Source of the DNA: a virus
Length of the DNA stretch: 53,933 nt
Strand: one strand, 5' to 3'
IMG/VR virus record: IMGVR_UViG_3300027973_000070
Location: 1 to 53,933 of that record
Shown here: in pieces, positions 15,770-33,141 of the stretch
Position numbering within the stretch: the stretch's first letter is position 1
Layout of the letters: every line of letters starts with the position of its first letter
Made by a program: the position numbers and the translations under genes
Notes under the pieces: model-generated
Told to the model about the DNA's origin: nothing
The model's database searches: none
What the model saw: only the letters and a program-made list of their open reading frames with translations

Positions 15770-18700
15770 TTATCGTGCCATTGCGGCCAATCCACCGCGA
15801 CGTTTCTTTGGTGCTTCGGGCTTCTTGCCACTAAATAACTGGACGCCTTTTTTGACGCCCTTTTTAATTAAACCTGCTGGCGTAAGAAGACCAGCGACAG
15901 TCTCTGCTATTGGGAACTCGTTTTCTCCCAACAGTCCCGCTTTGTTCATTGCGTCAAGGTATTGCGCACTACCAAACCACGGCTTCTCAGAAGCCAACTC
16001 GGTTCCCAAAACTGCATCTGGAGCCATCAACAAAAAATTTGCAAGGTCAGGAATTGCGCCAGCGTATGAAGCGCCAACACGAAGAGCAAAATCCTTTATG
16101 CCCCTTGCGCTCTTGAGTTGGCTGACCTCGTCCTTAATTTTCTGCTTTGCCTTCTGCTTTTCCTCCTCATAGACTCCGGGGGCGTTGCGTTTGATGGCGT
16201 CCCAAGTCTTGTCGTCCATGACGCTAAGGTCGCTGGCGCTTATGCCTAACTCTTCAGGAGAGAACGTGCCGCCGCTTGTGGTGATGCCGCCCTTGTCCAT
16301 GAACTGTAGTTTGCTTAATGCGCCGCCGTGGGCCATGCCTTCGGGTGGCCGCAATGCTCTAAGCAACAAATCATCTTGTTCGGCTCTGGTCACGTATTCA
16401 CCAGCGCCAATTGCGTCCAGTTCGTCTGGAGAGAATTTGTCAATCAAATCACTCTTGCGAGTTAACCCGGTGTTCCTCAAGTCACCAACGTCAGACCACT
16501 GACCGCCCTTCACAAAGTCTTGGATGTAGGGCAGGTATTCCTCGTTGGGTGCGCGGTTGCCTTTGCCTTTAATTTGAGTGATGTTCTGCGGAGGAGTAAT
16601 GCCCCTTTCGGCAAGGTTTTTCTCAGCTTCAGCCCACAATGATTCGTTACCGGGAGCCATGTATTTTTGAATGCCACGTTCCTCAGCAAGGCGAATAATC
16701 TCTTTGTTCTTTTCTCCGGCATATTCATGCCCGCCACCAATTTTTGTTTCAACCGTCGCATGAGGCGCACCCTTTGAGTCAACCAGCGAGTACACCTTGG
16801 TCTTGCCGCTCTTGATGGCCTCCCAGCCTCCTTGGCCGTAACTAAGGCTACCCGAGTCTCCAGAGCCTTCAACCCAGTCAGGATGGCCCTTGGGCGGCTC
16901 GTAGCCCCTAACTGAGTGCCCCATCGCTTCGGACTCCTGTGAGAATGCGCCGGGCTTGTTGAGTTGAATCCATTTGTAGCCTTCAGGATACTCTCTGTAA
17001 GTAGGCAACCCCTCACGAGCCGCCGCCCTGCTGGCATTCATCTTGGCCGCAAGTTCTTGGTCGTACTCGAAGGTGCGGCGCACGGCCTGTTCCATGCTGA
17101 CTTTGCTGAGTTGCTCTGGGCGAATGCGGCCAGCAGTCACATCTTCACGCAGCACATCCATGATGTGGTCAAAGCCAAGGTCACCAGTGAACGGCGCATA
17201 CATCGGTGTTTCTGGCGCAAGTTTGTTGATGTAAGGGTTTTGACGCCCAAGTTCCATGTAGTTGTCCATCATTGGGACGTGCGCGTTTATATACTCAGTG
17301 TTAGCTTTTGCATAATCTGTATCGCCAACCATTTTTGCTTTTACATCAAACGCAGTGCCGCGAATCAAGTTGGCTTCTTCTCTTTCGTTGAGCCCGGCAA
17401 CCGCAATATGCTGCTTGAACTTTTCGTCCAACTCACTTCTAGCAGCACGCATTTTGTTCTCGGCCTCAGTGAACTTGGCAAACCTCTCTGGCATCTCTTG
17501 AATGTCACCAGCCCGGTGCGTTGCAATGGCCTCATCGGAGGCTTGCTCCCATGCTTGGGCTGCTGGGGATTGGCCCATGCCCTCTTCTGGGAAACCAGCT
17601 TCCCTGCGTTGCTTTCTCAACGGGGCAGTAGATAAATATGGGTTGTCACGCAAAAGACCGGGATTGTGCGTGATGCCCTGCTCGGCCAGCTTGCGCACTG
17701 GGTCGTCAGCCGTGCCCATTTGCTTCTTGACATAGTTGGTCAGGTTGCTGTCAACCCATTTGTCAATCGCGGCCTCACCCTTGGTTGCGTCAAGCATACG
17801 TTGAACGCGGTCTCGCTGGTCTTGGCTCAGTGTTGGGTTTTTCAACAATTCTTCGTGCTTAGATATTCTTTGAGCAGGCGTTTCACCCACAAAGGTCGGC
17901 GTTTTCAAAGGCTGCAAATCCTTCTCAGTCCGCCCAAGCAAGAAGTTCCCGCCCGTTGGCTTGACCACGTTGGCAGCAGGTTGACCAGCCGCTCGACCAA
18001 AGTCCTTGCCAGCCTTCATGACTGCCTTCGGTAGCCCGCCGACGAGCCGTATAGGCGCTCCCGGCCCAGTGTAGAAGCCCCCGGCTAGTGTCCCCAGCCC
18101 AGATGCTGCTTGCCCAGCAGGCGTGTCTGAGCGGAAGGGCAGGCGTTTCTCAATGTCCTCGGACGTTGGCAAGTAAGTCTCGCGGTGGTTGCCAGTGACT
18201 AGGTCACTGAGCGTCCGAGACCGCTCAAGGCCGGGAATCATGCGGATGAGCGACTCAATGTCACCGGGCGCTCCACCGATGCCTGACACCAAGCCACGGG
18301 CAAAGTCCATCGGCATATTGGCAGCAGCCTTGCGGTCGTTCTGATTCTCTGGCCTGCGCCCAGCAGAGCGGTAGCGCGGAGGGCTGAACTGGTCTAGCGG
18401 GTCACCGCCACCAGCCATCATTAGTCCACCCTTGGCCTTGCTGATGTCTGGGTCAGTGATGTCGTAAGTACCACGGTTGCTTATGGCGGATTTGATTTGC
18501 TCTGGCTCAAATGCCACCCAATTGTCTGAAGAATACTCGTTGCCTTTTGCTAACCCTCTCGGGTTTGCTTTAATCAACAAACCATCATGGCCCTCTTGTA
18601 TCAAAGAATCTTTAAAATCTTGGATAAATTTTTCTGCATCCTTCTTCTTCATGTTTTGCAAAGCCATGCTCTGCAACATATATTGCGATGAAGGTATTTC

Positions 18701-20665
18701 GTAAGGATTTTTTATTGACAGATGAAGAGGCATGATGTTGGCCCCAGATTCATACAGCCCTTTGGAAATGCCAGAGGTTGAGGAAATAAAATCTTCCGTG
18801 CTTTCAGGGTTAGCCGCCGTAAAGAATCCCAGTTTTGCTGTCGGATGTTTTGTGTTGCTACCCATTTTCTTTGGGGAAAACTGGTTGACATCTTGACTTG
18901 TTGCATGATAAACGGTAGGTGGGGCTTTGCTCCCCTCAAGGAACTTGGCAAGGTTGGCATCGCGCTCTGCCGTAGATAGCACATCCTGTGTGCCTTTTAC
19001 ACCATCATTGAGCAGTCCATGCAACTTGGCGTTGGCAAGCGACTCCTTGTCCATTGACATCGGAATACTGTTTACGCCTTGGTCGCGCAAGTAGGCGTAG
19101 CGATGACGGCCATCGCCAAAAGTAATTCGGCCAATCTTGTCTACAGAAACATTGCTGGCATTCATGGACGGGGCTGTCTGGGCAAACTCACCAAACTTGT
19201 TGTATCGGTCGCTAATGCCGCCTTGACCTTGTGGCCCGACATACTGCCATTCCGTCTTCTTAAACGCTTTGTCAAAAGCCTGTGGGTTGACGTTAGCCAA
19301 CACGTTACCTTCACGAGCCTCAATCGGATGCATGGTTACAGGCAAGACCTTGTCGCCAAACTTGACAGCCGACTTCCCCGCCTCGGCTTGGGGGGCGTCA
19401 ACCAAAAACTTCTTGGCAATGTCTCCAAGAGCCTTCAGCTTACCGCCGCCAGCCATGTGGACAACCTTCTCTCCGCCCATGCGGGCTTGGATAGCGGCCT
19501 GCAAACGGGCGTCAGCGGCTTCCATGTCTACCGCCCCACCGTTTGCCATACGGGCTTGTATTGCTTGCGCCAGCCTTGCGTCTGCGGCCTCCATGTCGAC
19601 AGCGCCGCCTTCCTTGTATCCCGCTTTTTGCAGGTACGTCAGGTAGTCTTCGTCAACGAGTTGTGATGGCTCTGCCCTTGCCAAGTCATAGTAGGTGACG
19701 GGCGAAGGCTTTTGATTTTTATCTAGCCGCCCCTCCCGTGCTTTATAGAAGTCGCGCATAGCCTTTTCAGGCGGAACCAGTCCGTACTTCAGGCCAAGGT
19801 CATTTCCTGTCACTTGATAAGCAAACGCCTCGTTCAAGTCTGGGCGCTCAATGATTTTGCCATCCAGCACAAACAGGCGATTGCCCACATCGTAAGTACC
19901 AGCATTTACTAGGTCGGGGTCGGTCTCGCGCTTGAGGATGTTTTCAATGTCGCTTGCGTCGACGAACTTTGTGCCGGGGAATTCATTCTTGAAGTCTTTA
20001 CGCGCCATCGGGCCTTTGACGCCTAGCCCAAGCATGACATCACCAACAGCAGCGCGTCGGGCAAAGGTGTTGGCAACGCTCAGGGCGCTTGGGTCAGTCA
20101 GGTCAAACCCATTCTGGAACACCTTGGCTCCCGTCTTCAGGTCTGTCAGTTCATTCAGGCGTTTGTTCATGAGCATGATTTGCTCAACAGGCACAACGCC
20201 CTGCTTAACGGACTTCTGAAACTCTTTGATGGCGTCGCCAATGACTACGGAGTTGCTTTTGTGTTGGTCGGGTGAGCCAACGAAAGTTGTCCACAGGCTG
20301 TTCTCTGGGTCGTTCTGGCGAATCTTCTTCTCTGCCGTGCCTATGTTGCCAAAGCCCCAAACCGTGTTGGCCTTCTTGTGGGGCTTGGAGAAATGCTGGA
20401 GGCCAGAGAAGCCTACGCCGCCACGGTTCTGGCCCTGTACCCTTGAGCGGTCAGCCTCGGTGAAGTTCAAGGTCTTGCCCTCTGCGCCTGCGTTGCCCAG
20501 TGCCTCGGACATCCGCATGGATGCAGGAGCCGCTGGGTCAGCGAAGTCAACGCCGGGAACCCCAAGACCTCGGGAGCGTGCAGCAGCCACCTCTTCTGGC
20601 GCAAGCAGGCGCTTGGCAAAGTCCAGTCCGCCTTTGATTACCTTGAGTCTTTTTGGGTCAGCCAT
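15770..20665 (-). CDS. Giant polyvalent protein with ParB-like and ADP-ribosyltransferase-like regions
   Basis: 1631 residues, starting two bases past the terminase stop. No single fold explains it. Residues ~500-550 include ITFGDGRHRYAYLRDQG, the ParB-like DGRHR motif. Residues ~582-730 begin PPTVYHATSQ, continue with GFFTAANPES and IKNPYEIPSS, and end WVAFEPEQIKSAI, the layout of ADP-ribosyltransferases found in phage polyvalent proteins. Residues ~1291-1308 (VYSLVDSKGAPHATVETK) are a third recurring module. Two tandem 23-residue repeats (GGAVDMEAADARL type) lie at 353-396. Gly-Gly motifs (MAGGGKL, KGGLMMAGGG, MDKGGITTSGG, RRGGLAAM) punctuate domain borders. Polyvalent proteins are thought to be injected with the DNA to act on the host. 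Catalytic residues were not verified. Confidence 0.65.
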   Translation of the reverse strand: MADPKRLKVIKGGLDFAKRLLAPEEVAAARSRGLGVPGVDFADPAAPASMRMSEALGNAGAEGKTLNFTEADRSRVQGQNRGGVGFSGLQHFSKPHKKANTVWGFGNIGTAEKKIRQNDPENSLWTTFVGSPDQHKSNSVVIGDAIKEFQKSVKQGVVPVEQIMLMNKRLNELTDLKTGAKVFQNGFDLTDPSALSVANTFARRAAVGDVMLGLGVKGPMARKDFKNEFPGTKFVDASDIENILKRETDPDLVNAGTYDVGNRLFVLDGKIIERPDLNEAFAYQVTGNDLGLKYGLVPPEKAMRDFYKAREGRLDKNQKPSPVTYYDLARAEPSQLVDEDYLTYLQKAGYKEGGAVDMEAADARLAQAIQARMANGGAVDMEAADARLQAAIQARMGGEKVVHMAGGGKLKALGDIAKKFLVDAPQAEAGKSAVKFGDKVLPVTMHPIEAREGNVLANVNPQAFDKAFKKTEWQYVGPQGQGGISDRYNKFGEFAQTAPSMNASNVSVDKIGRITFGDGRHRYAYLRDQGVNSIPMSMDKESLANAKLHGLLNDGVKGTQDVLSTAERDANLAKFLEGSKAPPTVYHATSQDVNQFSPKKMGSNTKHPTAKLGFFTAANPESTEDFISSTSGISKGLYESGANIMPLHLSIKNPYEIPSSQYMLQSMALQNMKKKDAEKFIQDFKDSLIQEGHDGLLIKANPRGLAKGNEYSSDNWVAFEPEQIKSAISNRGTYDITDPDISKAKGGLMMAGGGDPLDQFSPPRYRSAGRRPENQNDRKAAANMPMDFARGLVSGIGGAPGDIESLIRMIPGLERSRTLSDLVTGNHRETYLPTSEDIEKRLPFRSDTPAGQAASGLGTLAGGFYTGPGAPIRLVGGLPKAVMKAGKDFGRAAGQPAANVVKPTGGNFLLGRTEKDLQPLKTPTFVGETPAQRISKHEELLKNPTLSQDQRDRVQRMLDATKGEAAIDKWVDSNLTNYVKKQMGTADDPVRKLAEQGITHNPGLLRDNPYLSTAPLRKQRREAGFPEEGMGQSPAAQAWEQASDEAIATHRAGDIQEMPERFAKFTEAENKMRAARSELDEKFKQHIAVAGLNEREEANLIRGTAFDVKAKMVGDTDYAKANTEYINAHVPMMDNYMELGRQNPYINKLAPETPMYAPFTGDLGFDHIMDVLREDVTAGRIRPEQLSKVSMEQAVRRTFEYDQELAAKMNASRAAAREGLPTYREYPEGYKWIQLNKPGAFSQESEAMGHSVRGYEPPKGHPDWVEGSGDSGSLSYGQGGWEAIKSGKTKVYSLVDSKGAPHATVETKIGGGHEYAGEKNKEIIRLAEERGIQKYMAPGNESLWAEAEKNLAERGITPPQNITQIKGKGNRAPNEEYLPYIQDFVKGGQWSDVGDLRNTGLTRKSDLIDKFSPDELDAIGAGEYVTRAEQDDLLLRALRPPEGMAHGGALSKLQFMDKGGITTSGGTFSPEELGISASDLSVMDDKTWDAIKRNAPGVYEEEKQKAKQKIKDEVSQLKSARGIKDFALRVGASYAGAIPDLANFLLMAPDAVLGTELASEKPWFGSAQYLDAMNKAGLLGENEFPIAETVAGLLTPAGLIKKGVKKGVQLFSGKKPEAPKKRRGGLAAMAR

Positions 20666-20667
20666 AG

Positions 20668-22980
20668 TTACACCGCATAGGGGTTGACCCGCTCTTTGCG
20701 GGTATAAGCGTAGTCATCGTCGTCATCATACAGAGGCTCAGGGTTGATGTCGAGGAAACCCATGTCCTTCATTAACCGAATCGCTTGTGTGCAATTGTGT
20801 ACCAGAATCCCGTTGGCATAGTAGCAATGCTCACCCTCCACTGTCAGGTCGAACACATGACGCATGGTATGGGTGTTCGTAACTTGACTTGCCAAGACGG
20901 AGCCGAGACTCTTGGTTTTGGCAGGTGGGGCCGCAAAACTTCTTTCGGTCAGGAACTTTGGCAATCCCGTCAAAACCGCACCAAACGCATTTGTAAGGGG
21001 CTGGATAGTACGAGTTAGGCTTACCCCAAGCCTTGCCCAAAGAGTTCTTTGCGTGTTCTTTGTGCCATGCCTTACCTTTGTCTGACCTGTGCCATTCAGC
21101 GGCTTTGTGTCGAACCTTGTCAAGGTGGGCAATCTGCTTGGGGGATTTGTTCTGCTCGGACAATTCAGCGCGATGTTCATCCCAATGCTGCTTGCGTGTG
21201 ATGCAGGCCAAGTTGCCGATGTCGTTGTTGGCCGTGTTGCCGTCAATGTGGTGAACGTGCATACCTTGAGGGATTGGCCCGTTGTGATGAATCCACACAT
21301 CCCGGTGAAGCCTGTAGCCAGCCCTTGCAAAGTATCGGCGGTGCGCCGGGTTATCACTCTCAGGATAACGGTTGTACTTGCGACCGTTGAAGACCACCGA
21401 CTCAACAGCAACGCCACTTGATTTGAAAACCATGATGCATCCTTGTAAAGGTATACATTGTGGATTGATTGATTCAATGAGTCAACCCTAGTCCAACCAT
21501 GTTGGGTCATCACGCGATGCTCGGCTGTAGCCAATAGCCCGTTGACGTTCCACACCTCTTTTAGTCCGTTGTCGTGTACCGTCGTGACCCGTCGAGCGCC
21601 CACTGGTGTCATCACCATGTCGCCAACCACAATATCCTTGATGACCTTTGTGCCGCTTGCCATTTGCACCTGAGTCAATGAATCAACACAGGAATCTACA
21701 TAATCATCATGGGTTGAGTCGGGGAAGGAGCATATTTGGCTCAGGAAGCCCTCACACCAGTCCTTGACGTAGCCCTTCCTGACGCTGCTCTCGGGTAGCC
21801 ATACCCGGCCTGTGGCGAAGATGGAGGCGGTAATCTGGAGTCGCTGCATCTTGTCAGCCTTGCCGGGGTTGTAGCCCCTGACGGGCAGATGCGCAGCACG
21901 CAGTTCTTGAATCAGGGAGATGCCTGCGGCCTTGTCTTCCACGAGTATCAGGTCAGGGCGCTTGGCCTCCTTGCCTTCGCCGTAGGACACCCGCCACTCC
22001 TCTAGCACCTTGGGCTTGAGCAGGGGGAAGGTCAGGTGTTCGGCCCAGCAGTCGATGAGCAGGACGGACATCGGGCCATCCAGTGGCTTGAATACGCCCC
22101 ACGTTGTCATGGCCGTCGGGTCGTTGTATTCCTTATCGCTGAAGGCACAGTCATAGCTTTGGACTATGAACTCGAACTTGGGGAAGGGTTTCTCGGCGGG
22201 GTACAGCTTGAACATGTCCCTGCCAACCACCTTGCCGTCTTCGAGGTCGACCAGCATACCCATGACCTCCTGCTCGTACAGCTTGCTGCCTTTGTACTGC
22301 TCAAGCTGGTTGCGGAAGGTTGAGGCGAGGTTGGCCTCGTTCTCGTAGGTGCTGGCGCGGTCAATGACTACGTCGTCACCCTCCCTGCCGACCAAGTCGA
22401 TGATGAGGTCTTTGGGTCTCGGGGTGGTTGTCACGATGACACGGGGCTTGTCACCCAGACGCAGGCCCATCATCATCATGTCCCACGCCTCCCCGGCTCC
22501 GAGGTACTGGAATGCCGCCAACTCATCACACCAAGCGTAGTGGAACTGCGGCCCCCGCAGGCGCTCGTAGGAGTCGCCCGAGATGCCCCGGATGATTGCC
22601 CCGTTGCTCAGGCGGATTTGGTGGTCTTGCTTGTTGTAGTCAACCACGAGTTCTGGGGGGATGCAGGCGAGGAGTCCTGACTGCCCCTCAAAGCAGGTGA
22701 ACTTGATGTCGTTGCTGGTTGGAGCCAGCACAAGGCATCGACAGCCGGGGTGACACCATGCCCACCACCAGAGGGCTTCAGCGGCACTGCGGGTCTTCCC
22801 GGCCCCCCGGCCAGCCAGCATCATCCAGACGGTGTAGTCCTGCTCAAGCGGGGGCGGTATCTGGTATCTGTGGGCGCTGGCTACCCATTTGGCGTGGGCA
22901 ATCAGGGCAATGCGGTCATGCTCAGGGCGGCGGTTGAACTCTGCCTGCACCTCTGGGTCTGACAGCATCTCACTCAGCAT
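20668..22980 (-). CDS. terL: Terminase large subunit interrupted by an intein
   Basis: 770 residues as translated, 471 after splicing. The ATG at 22980 follows the stop of the preceding small gene; longer starts would overlap it. The ATPase part has Walker A LAGRGAGKT (residues 55-63), Walker B HYAWCDE (~147-153) and the coupling motif VTTTPRP. The nuclease part has YDCAFSD, ILVEDKAAG and HDDYVDS. The intein starts at the Cys right after DDYVDS and ends at VHN before CTQAIRL, so splicing would rebuild DDYVDSCTQAIRL. TerL packages and cuts phage DNA at the portal, so the intein must splice for the nuclease domain to be whole. Terminase nuclease motifs are frequent intein sites. Confidence 0.9.
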   Translation of the reverse strand: MLSEMLSDPEVQAEFNRRPEHDRIALIAHAKWVASAHRYQIPPPLEQDYTVWMMLAGRGAGKTRSAAEALWWWAWCHPGCRCLVLAPTSNDIKFTCFEGQSGLLACIPPELVVDYNKQDHQIRLSNGAIIRGISGDSYERLRGPQFHYAWCDELAAFQYLGAGEAWDMMMMGLRLGDKPRVIVTTTPRPKDLIIDLVGREGDDVVIDRASTYENEANLASTFRNQLEQYKGSKLYEQEVMGMLVDLEDGKVVGRDMFKLYPAEKPFPKFEFIVQSYDCAFSDKEYNDPTAMTTWGVFKPLDGPMSVLLIDCWAEHLTFPLLKPKVLEEWRVSYGEGKEAKRPDLILVEDKAAGISLIQELRAAHLPVRGYNPGKADKMQRLQITASIFATGRVWLPESSVRKGYVKDWCEGFLSQICSFPDSTHDDYVDSCVDSLTQVQMASGTKVIKDIVVGDMVMTPVGARRVTTVHDNGLKEVWNVNGLLATAEHRVMTQHGWTRVDSLNQSIHNVYLYKDASWFSNQVALLLSRWSSTVASTTVILRVITRRTADTLQGLATGFTGMCGFITTGQSLKVCTFTTLTATRPTTTSATWPASHASSIGMNIALNCPSRTNPPSRLPTLTRFDTKPLNGTGQTKVRHGTKNTQRTLWARLGVSLTRTIQPLTNAFGAVLTGLPKFLTERSFAAPPAKTKSLGSVLASQVTNTHTMRHVFDLTVEGEHCYYANGILVHNCTQAIRLMKDMGFLDINPEPLYDDDDDYAYTRKERVNPYAV
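20794..21690 (-). other. Intein coding region (299 residues) within terL
   Basis: Block A begins with the nucleophile Cys (CVDSLTQVQMASGT, then VVGDMVMTP). Block B is LLATAEHRVMT, with the TxxH motif. Block F is VFDLTVEGEHCYYANGIL, followed by block G VHN and then Cys+1 of the extein. All residues expected for a class 1 splicing intein are visible. Between blocks B and F the intein frame is a low-complexity Thr/Ser/Arg stretch with no endonuclease motif. A complete HNH gene occupies those bases in another frame. The splicing domains therefore look intact, while the linker looks like a by-product of dual coding. Confidence 0.9.
20831..21433 (-). CDS. HNH endonuclease nested out of frame inside the terL intein
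   Basis: 200 residues on the same strand as terL in a different frame, overlaying intein residues ~86-287. The ATG at 21433 has AAGGA upstream with proper spacing, so it can be translated on its own. Residues 16-45 (VFNGRKYNRYPES, RAGYRLHRDVW) and the core GMHVHHIDGNTANNDIGNL match free-standing HNH homing endonucleases: the HH pair lies at 61-62, Asn at 69-70 and His at 83. A zinc pair (CVWC at 149-152, CGPTC at 167-171) follows. Its C-terminus overlaps coding for intein block F by about 35 bases. It would cut terL alleles lacking the intein. Confidence 0.85.
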   Translation of the reverse strand: MVFKSSGVAVESVVFNGRKYNRYPESDNPAHRRYFARAGYRLHRDVWIHHNGPIPQGMHVHHIDGNTANNDIGNLACITRKQHWDEHRAELSEQNKSPKQIAHLDKVRHKAAEWHRSDKGKAWHKEHAKNSLGKAWGKPNSYYPAPYKCVWCGFDGIAKVPDRKKFCGPTCQNQESRLRLGKSSYEHPYHASCVRPDSGG

Positions 22981-22984
22981 GACG

Positions 22985-23188
22985 CTACAACCAGCCCATG
23001 AAGTCCTTGACATGTTGTGGAATCTCGCGATACCCACGGCAGTGCGCCAGCAAGTTGGCTACTTGGTCGGGTATCAGCTTGCCAACGTATGGGGCGTCTT
23101 TGCACCAGATGGTCAGGAGTTTCTGTTGACCATTGGTCAAACCCCTCTCGTCGCTGATTTGGTCTAACCATTCTCTGGTTACTATCAT
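22985..23188 (-). CDS. Small protein upstream of terL
   Basis: 67 residues from the ATG at 23188 (AAGGG upstream). The sequence MIVTREWLDQISDERGLTNG, then CKDAPYVGKLIPDQVANLLA, reads as a compact helical protein with no recognised motif. Its stop is followed at once by the terL start, so it is probably co-translated with terL. A packaging accessory role is possible from position only. Confidence 0.6.
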   Translation of the reverse strand: MIVTREWLDQISDERGLTNGQQKLLTIWCKDAPYVGKLIPDQVANLLAHCRGYREIPQHVKDFMGWL

Positions 23189-33040: not shown

Positions 33041-33141
33041 TGACAACCTTACGTTCTAGGTCAGCCGTTACTGTGGGTGGGTCTGGCAGGGCGGTAACGA
33101 ATCGCCTTTTCCCCCGCTAAGGGTAGCCATGCCCAATTCTA

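Follow-up and report, generated by a model that had tools for sequence, protein, structure and literature searches.

Intein endonucleases are usually fused in frame with the intein that carries them. The HNH intein described by Dalgaard in 1997 reportedly belongs to this canonical class, in which LAGLIDADG endonucleases are also carried in frame. In the fractured genes said to have been described by Dassa in 2009, the endonuclease gene instead lies between two intein halves. A 2025 preprint on actinobacteriophage inteins with non-canonical architecture, reportedly from the group that named the ShiLan domain, may describe inteins similar to ours. In group I introns, too, HNH homing enzymes such as I-HmuI have an ORF of their own inside a splicing element. 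However, their splicing takes place at the RNA level, so a second open frame is not required. The ShiLan domain is a hidden HNH within a phage DNA methylase (Arsenault, Gosselin, Gogarten 2025, PMC11855218). In mycobacteriophages, the TerL6-f intein of Chandler gp6 was reported to splice rapidly (Kelley 2016, PMC5050341).

We analyzed a viral DNA of 53,933 nucleotides (IMG/VR record IMGVR_UViG_3300027973_000070), here called the window, whose terL gene carries an intein with a complete HNH gene in another reading frame. Among published cases, ShiLan is the closest to this nested HNH. Both have a complete HNH out of frame in an open phage host gene, and both have a disjunct, homing-like distribution. 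However, the ShiLan insert has the features of neither an intein nor an intron, and no ribosome binding site was detected for it, whereas the window has a canonical intein and a Shine-Dalgarno-like site. The window thus meets one part of a ShiLan-type definition, the out-of-frame HNH in an open host gene, and fails the other, an insert that is neither intein nor intron.

Compared with canonical inteins, the window has the same splicing blocks, and its endonuclease also lies between blocks B and F. The endonuclease is, however, a separate gene in the +2 frame and not a domain of the intein protein, so the definition of a full-length intein, with the endonuclease in the intein frame, is not met. 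Nor is the window a fractured gene or split intein, since its TerL is a single uninterrupted ORF whose intein would splice in cis. Only relatives such as L183, L187 and L195 fit that definition; these and L196 look like the fractured arrangement. The Chandler intein is also a TerL intein with an out-of-frame nuclease, which we found to be in the same phase, and it has been shown to splice. It differs in its TerL site (C-motif) and in its nuclease family (Endonuclease_7).

The terL intein and the HNH gene within it

The gene for the large terminase subunit occupies 20668-23037 on the minus strand. It starts with GTG and encodes a 789-aa precursor with the Pfam domains Terminase_6N, Terminase_6C and Intein_splicing; the ORF has no internal stop and is a single unbroken gene. 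A class 1-like, putatively cis-splicing intein of 299 aa lies at 20794-21690 (minus). Its translation runs exactly from Cys1 through TxxH and VHN to Asn299 and is followed by Cys+1. The insertion point, fixed exactly by intein-free alleles, is in the TerL nuclease motif between HDDYVDS and [C/A]TQ. As expected of a class 1 intein, C1, T55, H58, H298 and N299 are invariant and Cys+1 is present. The splicing domain also fits the Hint fold, the nearest structures being the gp41-1, DnaB and RecA inteins.

AlphaFold2 modeled both ends of the intein confidently (about residues 1-80 and 268-299, with pLDDT about 88-96 to residue 80), and pLDDT was <50 across residues 88-260. From this model and block HMMs, the N-terminal part of the splicing domain, with blocks A and B, was assigned to residues 1-87 (21430-21690, minus) and the C-terminal part, with blocks F and G, to residues 261-299 (20794-20910, minus). 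Residues 88-260 (20911-21429, minus) form a read-through segment under the HNH gene that is predicted to be disordered. They occupy the customary endonuclease position of inteins (PMC6801210). No endonuclease domain was found in the intein reading frame, either by Pfam on the TerL frame or in the AlphaFold2 model.

The HNH gene lies at 20831-21433 on the same strand, starts with ATG and encodes a homing-type endonuclease of 200 aa. Its start minus the TerL start is 2 mod 3, so relative to terL it occupies the +2 (-1) frame. Pfam recognized HNH_3 in the protein (E 8.7e-17). The catalytic domain covers residues 40-83 (21185-21316, minus), and H61, H62, N74 and H83 are invariant in 58 relatives. 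So are C149, C152, C167 and C171, a four-cysteine motif that probably binds zinc (20921-20989, minus). With both the domain and the conserved catalytic His and Asn, the protein qualifies as HNH_3/I-HmuI-like. Its AlphaFold2 model has a mean pLDDT of 88.8, and the nearest structure is I-HmuI, although the Foldseek match is only weak (E 0.035). A Shine-Dalgarno-like AAGGA lies inside the intein coding sequence (21440-21444, minus), 6 nt upstream of the HNH ATG, and the HNH C-terminus is encoded over intein block F (20831-20884, minus).

A first-pass annotation, made from the sequence alone, had described a terL intein with intact blocks A, B, F and G and no in-frame endonuclease in its middle. 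The exact translation, Pfam and the block HMM bear out the former, and for the latter Pfam places only HNH_3, in the other frame. ORFs, phase and Pfam likewise confirm the full 200-residue out-of-frame HNH gene that it reported. Its own AAGGA and ATG are present, and its end does overlap block F, in a stretch constrained in both frames.

Phase and stop codons among relatives

A search with the intein region returned 23 contigs (L002-L024) with the intact dual layout at 48-100% identity, together with mini-inteins that lack the HNH and numerous terL alleles with no intein. Using tblastn of the HNH, four more phage records with the same layout were found (TJE1, Highwayman, LS06-2018-MD07 and MT838676). 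Their terL genes are only distantly related to that of the window, and they include isolates infecting Tetrasphaera and Acinetobacter. HNH-alignment scans of viral and genome contigs added 129 loci. The contig titles of the relatives include Bacteroidota, Bacillota, Pseudomonadota, Nitrospirota and Thermoplasmatota. At the DNA level, a search of annotated phages gave only a single 67-base match.

For classification we used 111 distinct HNHs, at most 97% identical to each other. Nesting was judged by HMMs of the intein N and C blocks around the HNH; absence of stops would have been a circular criterion and was not used. Both blocks flanked the HNH in 91 of the 111, and in 87 of these 91 the HNH had phase +2 and the TerL frame was free of stops from one block to the other. 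Only on one Planctomycetota contig (L179 1536-3602) did a TerL intein hold the HNH in the alternative +1 phase. No in-frame HNH fusion was seen among the 111. Pfam on the enclosing ORFs found terminase and intein domains, with Intein_splicing in 57/65. As a separate observation, L121 (160-1045) has its N-intein and C-intein blocks in different frames, with stops, while its close relative L122 is intact; L121 may be a frameshift, an error or a recent split.

Stop codons were then compared with codon permutation. The 65 nested relatives had 0 stops in the TerL frame versus 137.2 expected, whereas the 14 relatives without an enclosing open TerL frame (free-standing HNHs or HNHs between split intein halves) had 87 versus 86.9 expected. 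Permutation also gave far fewer expected stops in the +2 phase than in the other phase. We infer that the phase may be fixed at +2 because it is the easier one to keep open.

Nested members served as seeds in both collection scans, which inflates the proportion of nested loci in the HNH family as a whole; metagenomic contigs also predominate. An intein-alignment scan gave 79/80 nested and was biased by the middle of the query. An endonuclease-free mini-intein used as query returned mostly nested HNHs, a few HNH-free inteins and two distant in-frame ones. The nested layout, kept in dozens of only distantly related phages, is a conserved class and not an isolated curiosity, and it is more widespread than the first-pass annotation saw.

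Since in-frame fusion is the usual state of intein endonucleases, the HNH could in reality be an in-frame domain displaced by a sequencing or assembly frameshift. We give this practically no chance. The same phase recurs in 87/91 distinct loci, from many independent contigs as well as isolate genomes, and an error would need two compensating indels in every genome. The HNH is also equipped with a start, an SD-like site and a stop of its own. An assembly error had been named in advance as one result that would refute the nested reading, and the contigs and isolates rule it out. The other was stops through the same region in relatives. These occur in a few cases, all with the TerL/intein gene split there, and for that reason they support the dual-frame reading.

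Whether the second frame could be open by chance depends on what is compared. Shuffling synonymous codons of the window's gene gave 0.28 expected stops (P(0)=0.74), and recoding the HNH protein with genome codon usage gave 2.4 (P(0)=0.07). The HNH gene has no NTA codons, which account for 2.9% in the genome. In other genes of this phage, 0/136 segments of 600 nt were open in either other same-strand frame. Taken alone, the window's gene makes chance openness only weakly unlikely. The figure of about 7 in 100,000 given earlier is unsupported and wrong for this gene alone, because shuffling and recoding give 0.74 and 0.07. Chance is not excluded for the window alone; across the relatives, with 87/91 in the same phase and no stops, it is rejected. 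We therefore still accept the earlier claim that selection keeps about 600 bases open in two frames, and this rests on the relatives and not on the single-gene probability. For the nested layout as a class, the comparative evidence against chance is overwhelming.

Constraint on the two frames and expression of the HNH

Nine independent pairs from the window's clade were used in a dual-frame substitution test, with the core defined as the HNH before block F. In the core, HNH dNN/dSN was 0.14 (0.11-0.19), and by this measure the HNH codons are under purifying selection. The intein-frame dNN/dNS was 0.77 (0.61-1.0), a near-neutral value, which suggests that in the middle of the intein the frame is kept open while its residues are nearly unconstrained; the low-confidence middle of the AlphaFold2 intein model is in line with this. 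Over block F, the last HNH codons showed 1 NN difference over 190 NN sites, so both proteins are constrained there. The constraint proposed in both frames across 20831-21433 was thus seen throughout in the HNH frame. In the intein frame it was seen over block F and hardly at all in the core.

The overlap could also be a relic in which HNH expression has been lost and the open frames are merely historical. An HNH-less mini-intein derivative (L025, see below) does exist, but purifying selection on the HNH frame and the invariant catalytic and Cys residues in 58 sequences make this reading scarcely credible.

An SD-like core was present upstream of the HNH ATG in all 24 clade members checked. In some distant relatives the SD-like sites are weaker or missing, even with starts picked for the best SD. 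The HNH could alternatively come from a programmed -1 frameshift of TerL/IntN, giving an N-extein-IntN-HNH fusion without separate initiation. The HNH frame is indeed -1 to TerL, and in the window it stays open for 16 codons 5' of the ATG. Against this, L019, L022 and L023 have an HNH-frame stop just 5' of the ATG, which makes frameshifting unnecessary for the HNH, and the SD-like site is conserved. We consider a programmed frameshift highly unlikely as the source of the HNH. Separate initiation appears the more likely route, as inferred from these start regions.

Mobility, split forms and a second nuclease family

As anticipated, intein-free terL alleles were found in related phages. For two of them (L041 and L038), identity to the window's terL is 95-98% across most of the upstream stretch and falls to only 73% in the 30 bp that adjoin the intein site. 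L004 and L052 gave the same pattern, with 90% near the site against 98-100% elsewhere. The +1 residue is Ala in nearly all the intein-free alleles listed and Cys in the intein-bearing ones. Long intein-free records (49-56 kb) had no HNH match in 4/5 and a weak partial match in the fifth. L025 (124-483) is an HNH-less, in-frame mini-intein. Since DNA from the 3' end of the HNH is still present, it has the appearance of a derivative that lost the endonuclease through an in-frame deletion, and for the same reason we rejected it as a pre-insertion state. The polymorphism, the conversion-like flanks and L025 would fit a cycle in which the element invades, is retained and then loses its endonuclease. 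As to cutting of the cognate site and self-copying by the HNH, only the presence/absence polymorphism and the conversion-like flanks are observed.

We also considered that the HNH might be a packaging-associated helper of TerL that is parked in the intein and is not a homing enzyme. Related free-standing HNHs adjoin terL or terS, and HNH proteins are known packaging components (Kala 2014, as cited in PMC12613952). However, most relatives with an intein-free terL lack any HNH match, the protein belongs to HNH_3 with I-HmuI as nearest structure, and the presence/absence polymorphism comes with conversion-like flanks. This role is improbable.

We think it very likely that a complete homing endonuclease gene, translated on its own, resides in a mini-intein that splices in cis, and that the essential TerL keeps the second frame open. 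A class 1 mini-intein in the nuclease motif of TerL would carry the HNH gene at the usual endonuclease position. Ribosomes on terL would pass the HNH region in the intein frame, yielding a long disordered loop, and the two splicing-domain halves would fold and excise the insert to give TerL. A second initiation at the internal AAGGA/ATG would produce free HNH endonuclease. This would cut intein-free terL alleles, and repair would copy in the intein together with the HNH; short flanking conversion during copying may also change Ala+1 to Cys+1. Any mutation placing a stop in the second frame would be purged because TerL is essential. Being out of frame, the endonuclease gene can retain a start and a stop of its own and yet not terminate TerL. 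The sequences themselves show the architecture, its conservation and phase, the pattern of selection and the presence/absence polymorphism. Splicing, HNH translation, cleavage of the terL site and homing in this phage are inferred, splicing by analogy with Chandler.

Such a layout is a third architecture of endonuclease-bearing inteins, besides in-frame and split. Its persistence would be explained by an essential gene policing the second frame, and direct colonisation of inteins by complete endonuclease genes becomes testable. It is also a natural case of overlapping genes for which the free-standing relatives serve as an internal control, and it provides a plausible route to split inteins. 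Annotation hides such nucleases, and TerL inteins called endonuclease-free may hold one in another frame.

In several Bacillota loci and in L184, a contig from Patescibacteria, the ORF of the N-intein stops upstream of the HNH or at its start, and that of the C-intein starts within the HNH 3' end. L183, L184, L185, L187, L195, L196 and L199 appear to have naturally split TerL inteins whose halves enclose an HNH gene; in most of these, the C-intein ORF runs over the 3' end of the HNH. The free, nested and split forms lie dispersed over the HNH tree and therefore appear to interconvert.

An Endonuclease_7 gene lies out of frame in TerL inteins of Gordonia and Mycobacterium phages that are inserted elsewhere in TerL, in each case in the +2 phase (L327 1311-1844; L329 2372-2920; L331 2300-2926; L332 1296-1829; L333 957-1475). 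The Chandler intein is included among them; no mention of its hidden nuclease was found in the part of PMC5050341 that was available. By analogy, Chandler TerL6-f is the nearest experimental support that such nested inteins may splice. We favour, with some reserve, a broader view in which nesting at a fixed +2 phase is general and has been used repeatedly: at least two endonuclease families (HNH_3 and Endonuclease_7) would have complete free-standing genes housed in this way inside cis-splicing inteins of bacterial and archaeal phages. Such nesting would be a stable option beside in-frame fusion, and some of the naturally split TerL inteins would probably have arisen from it.

Two other features of the window were noted. 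A 1631-aa ORF with a repeated GGAVDMEAADARL..AIQARM segment lies immediately downstream of terL (15770-20665, minus). At 33065-33133 (minus), a match to the Rfam int-alpA RNA was barely over the gathering score (36.4 vs 35.8 bits).
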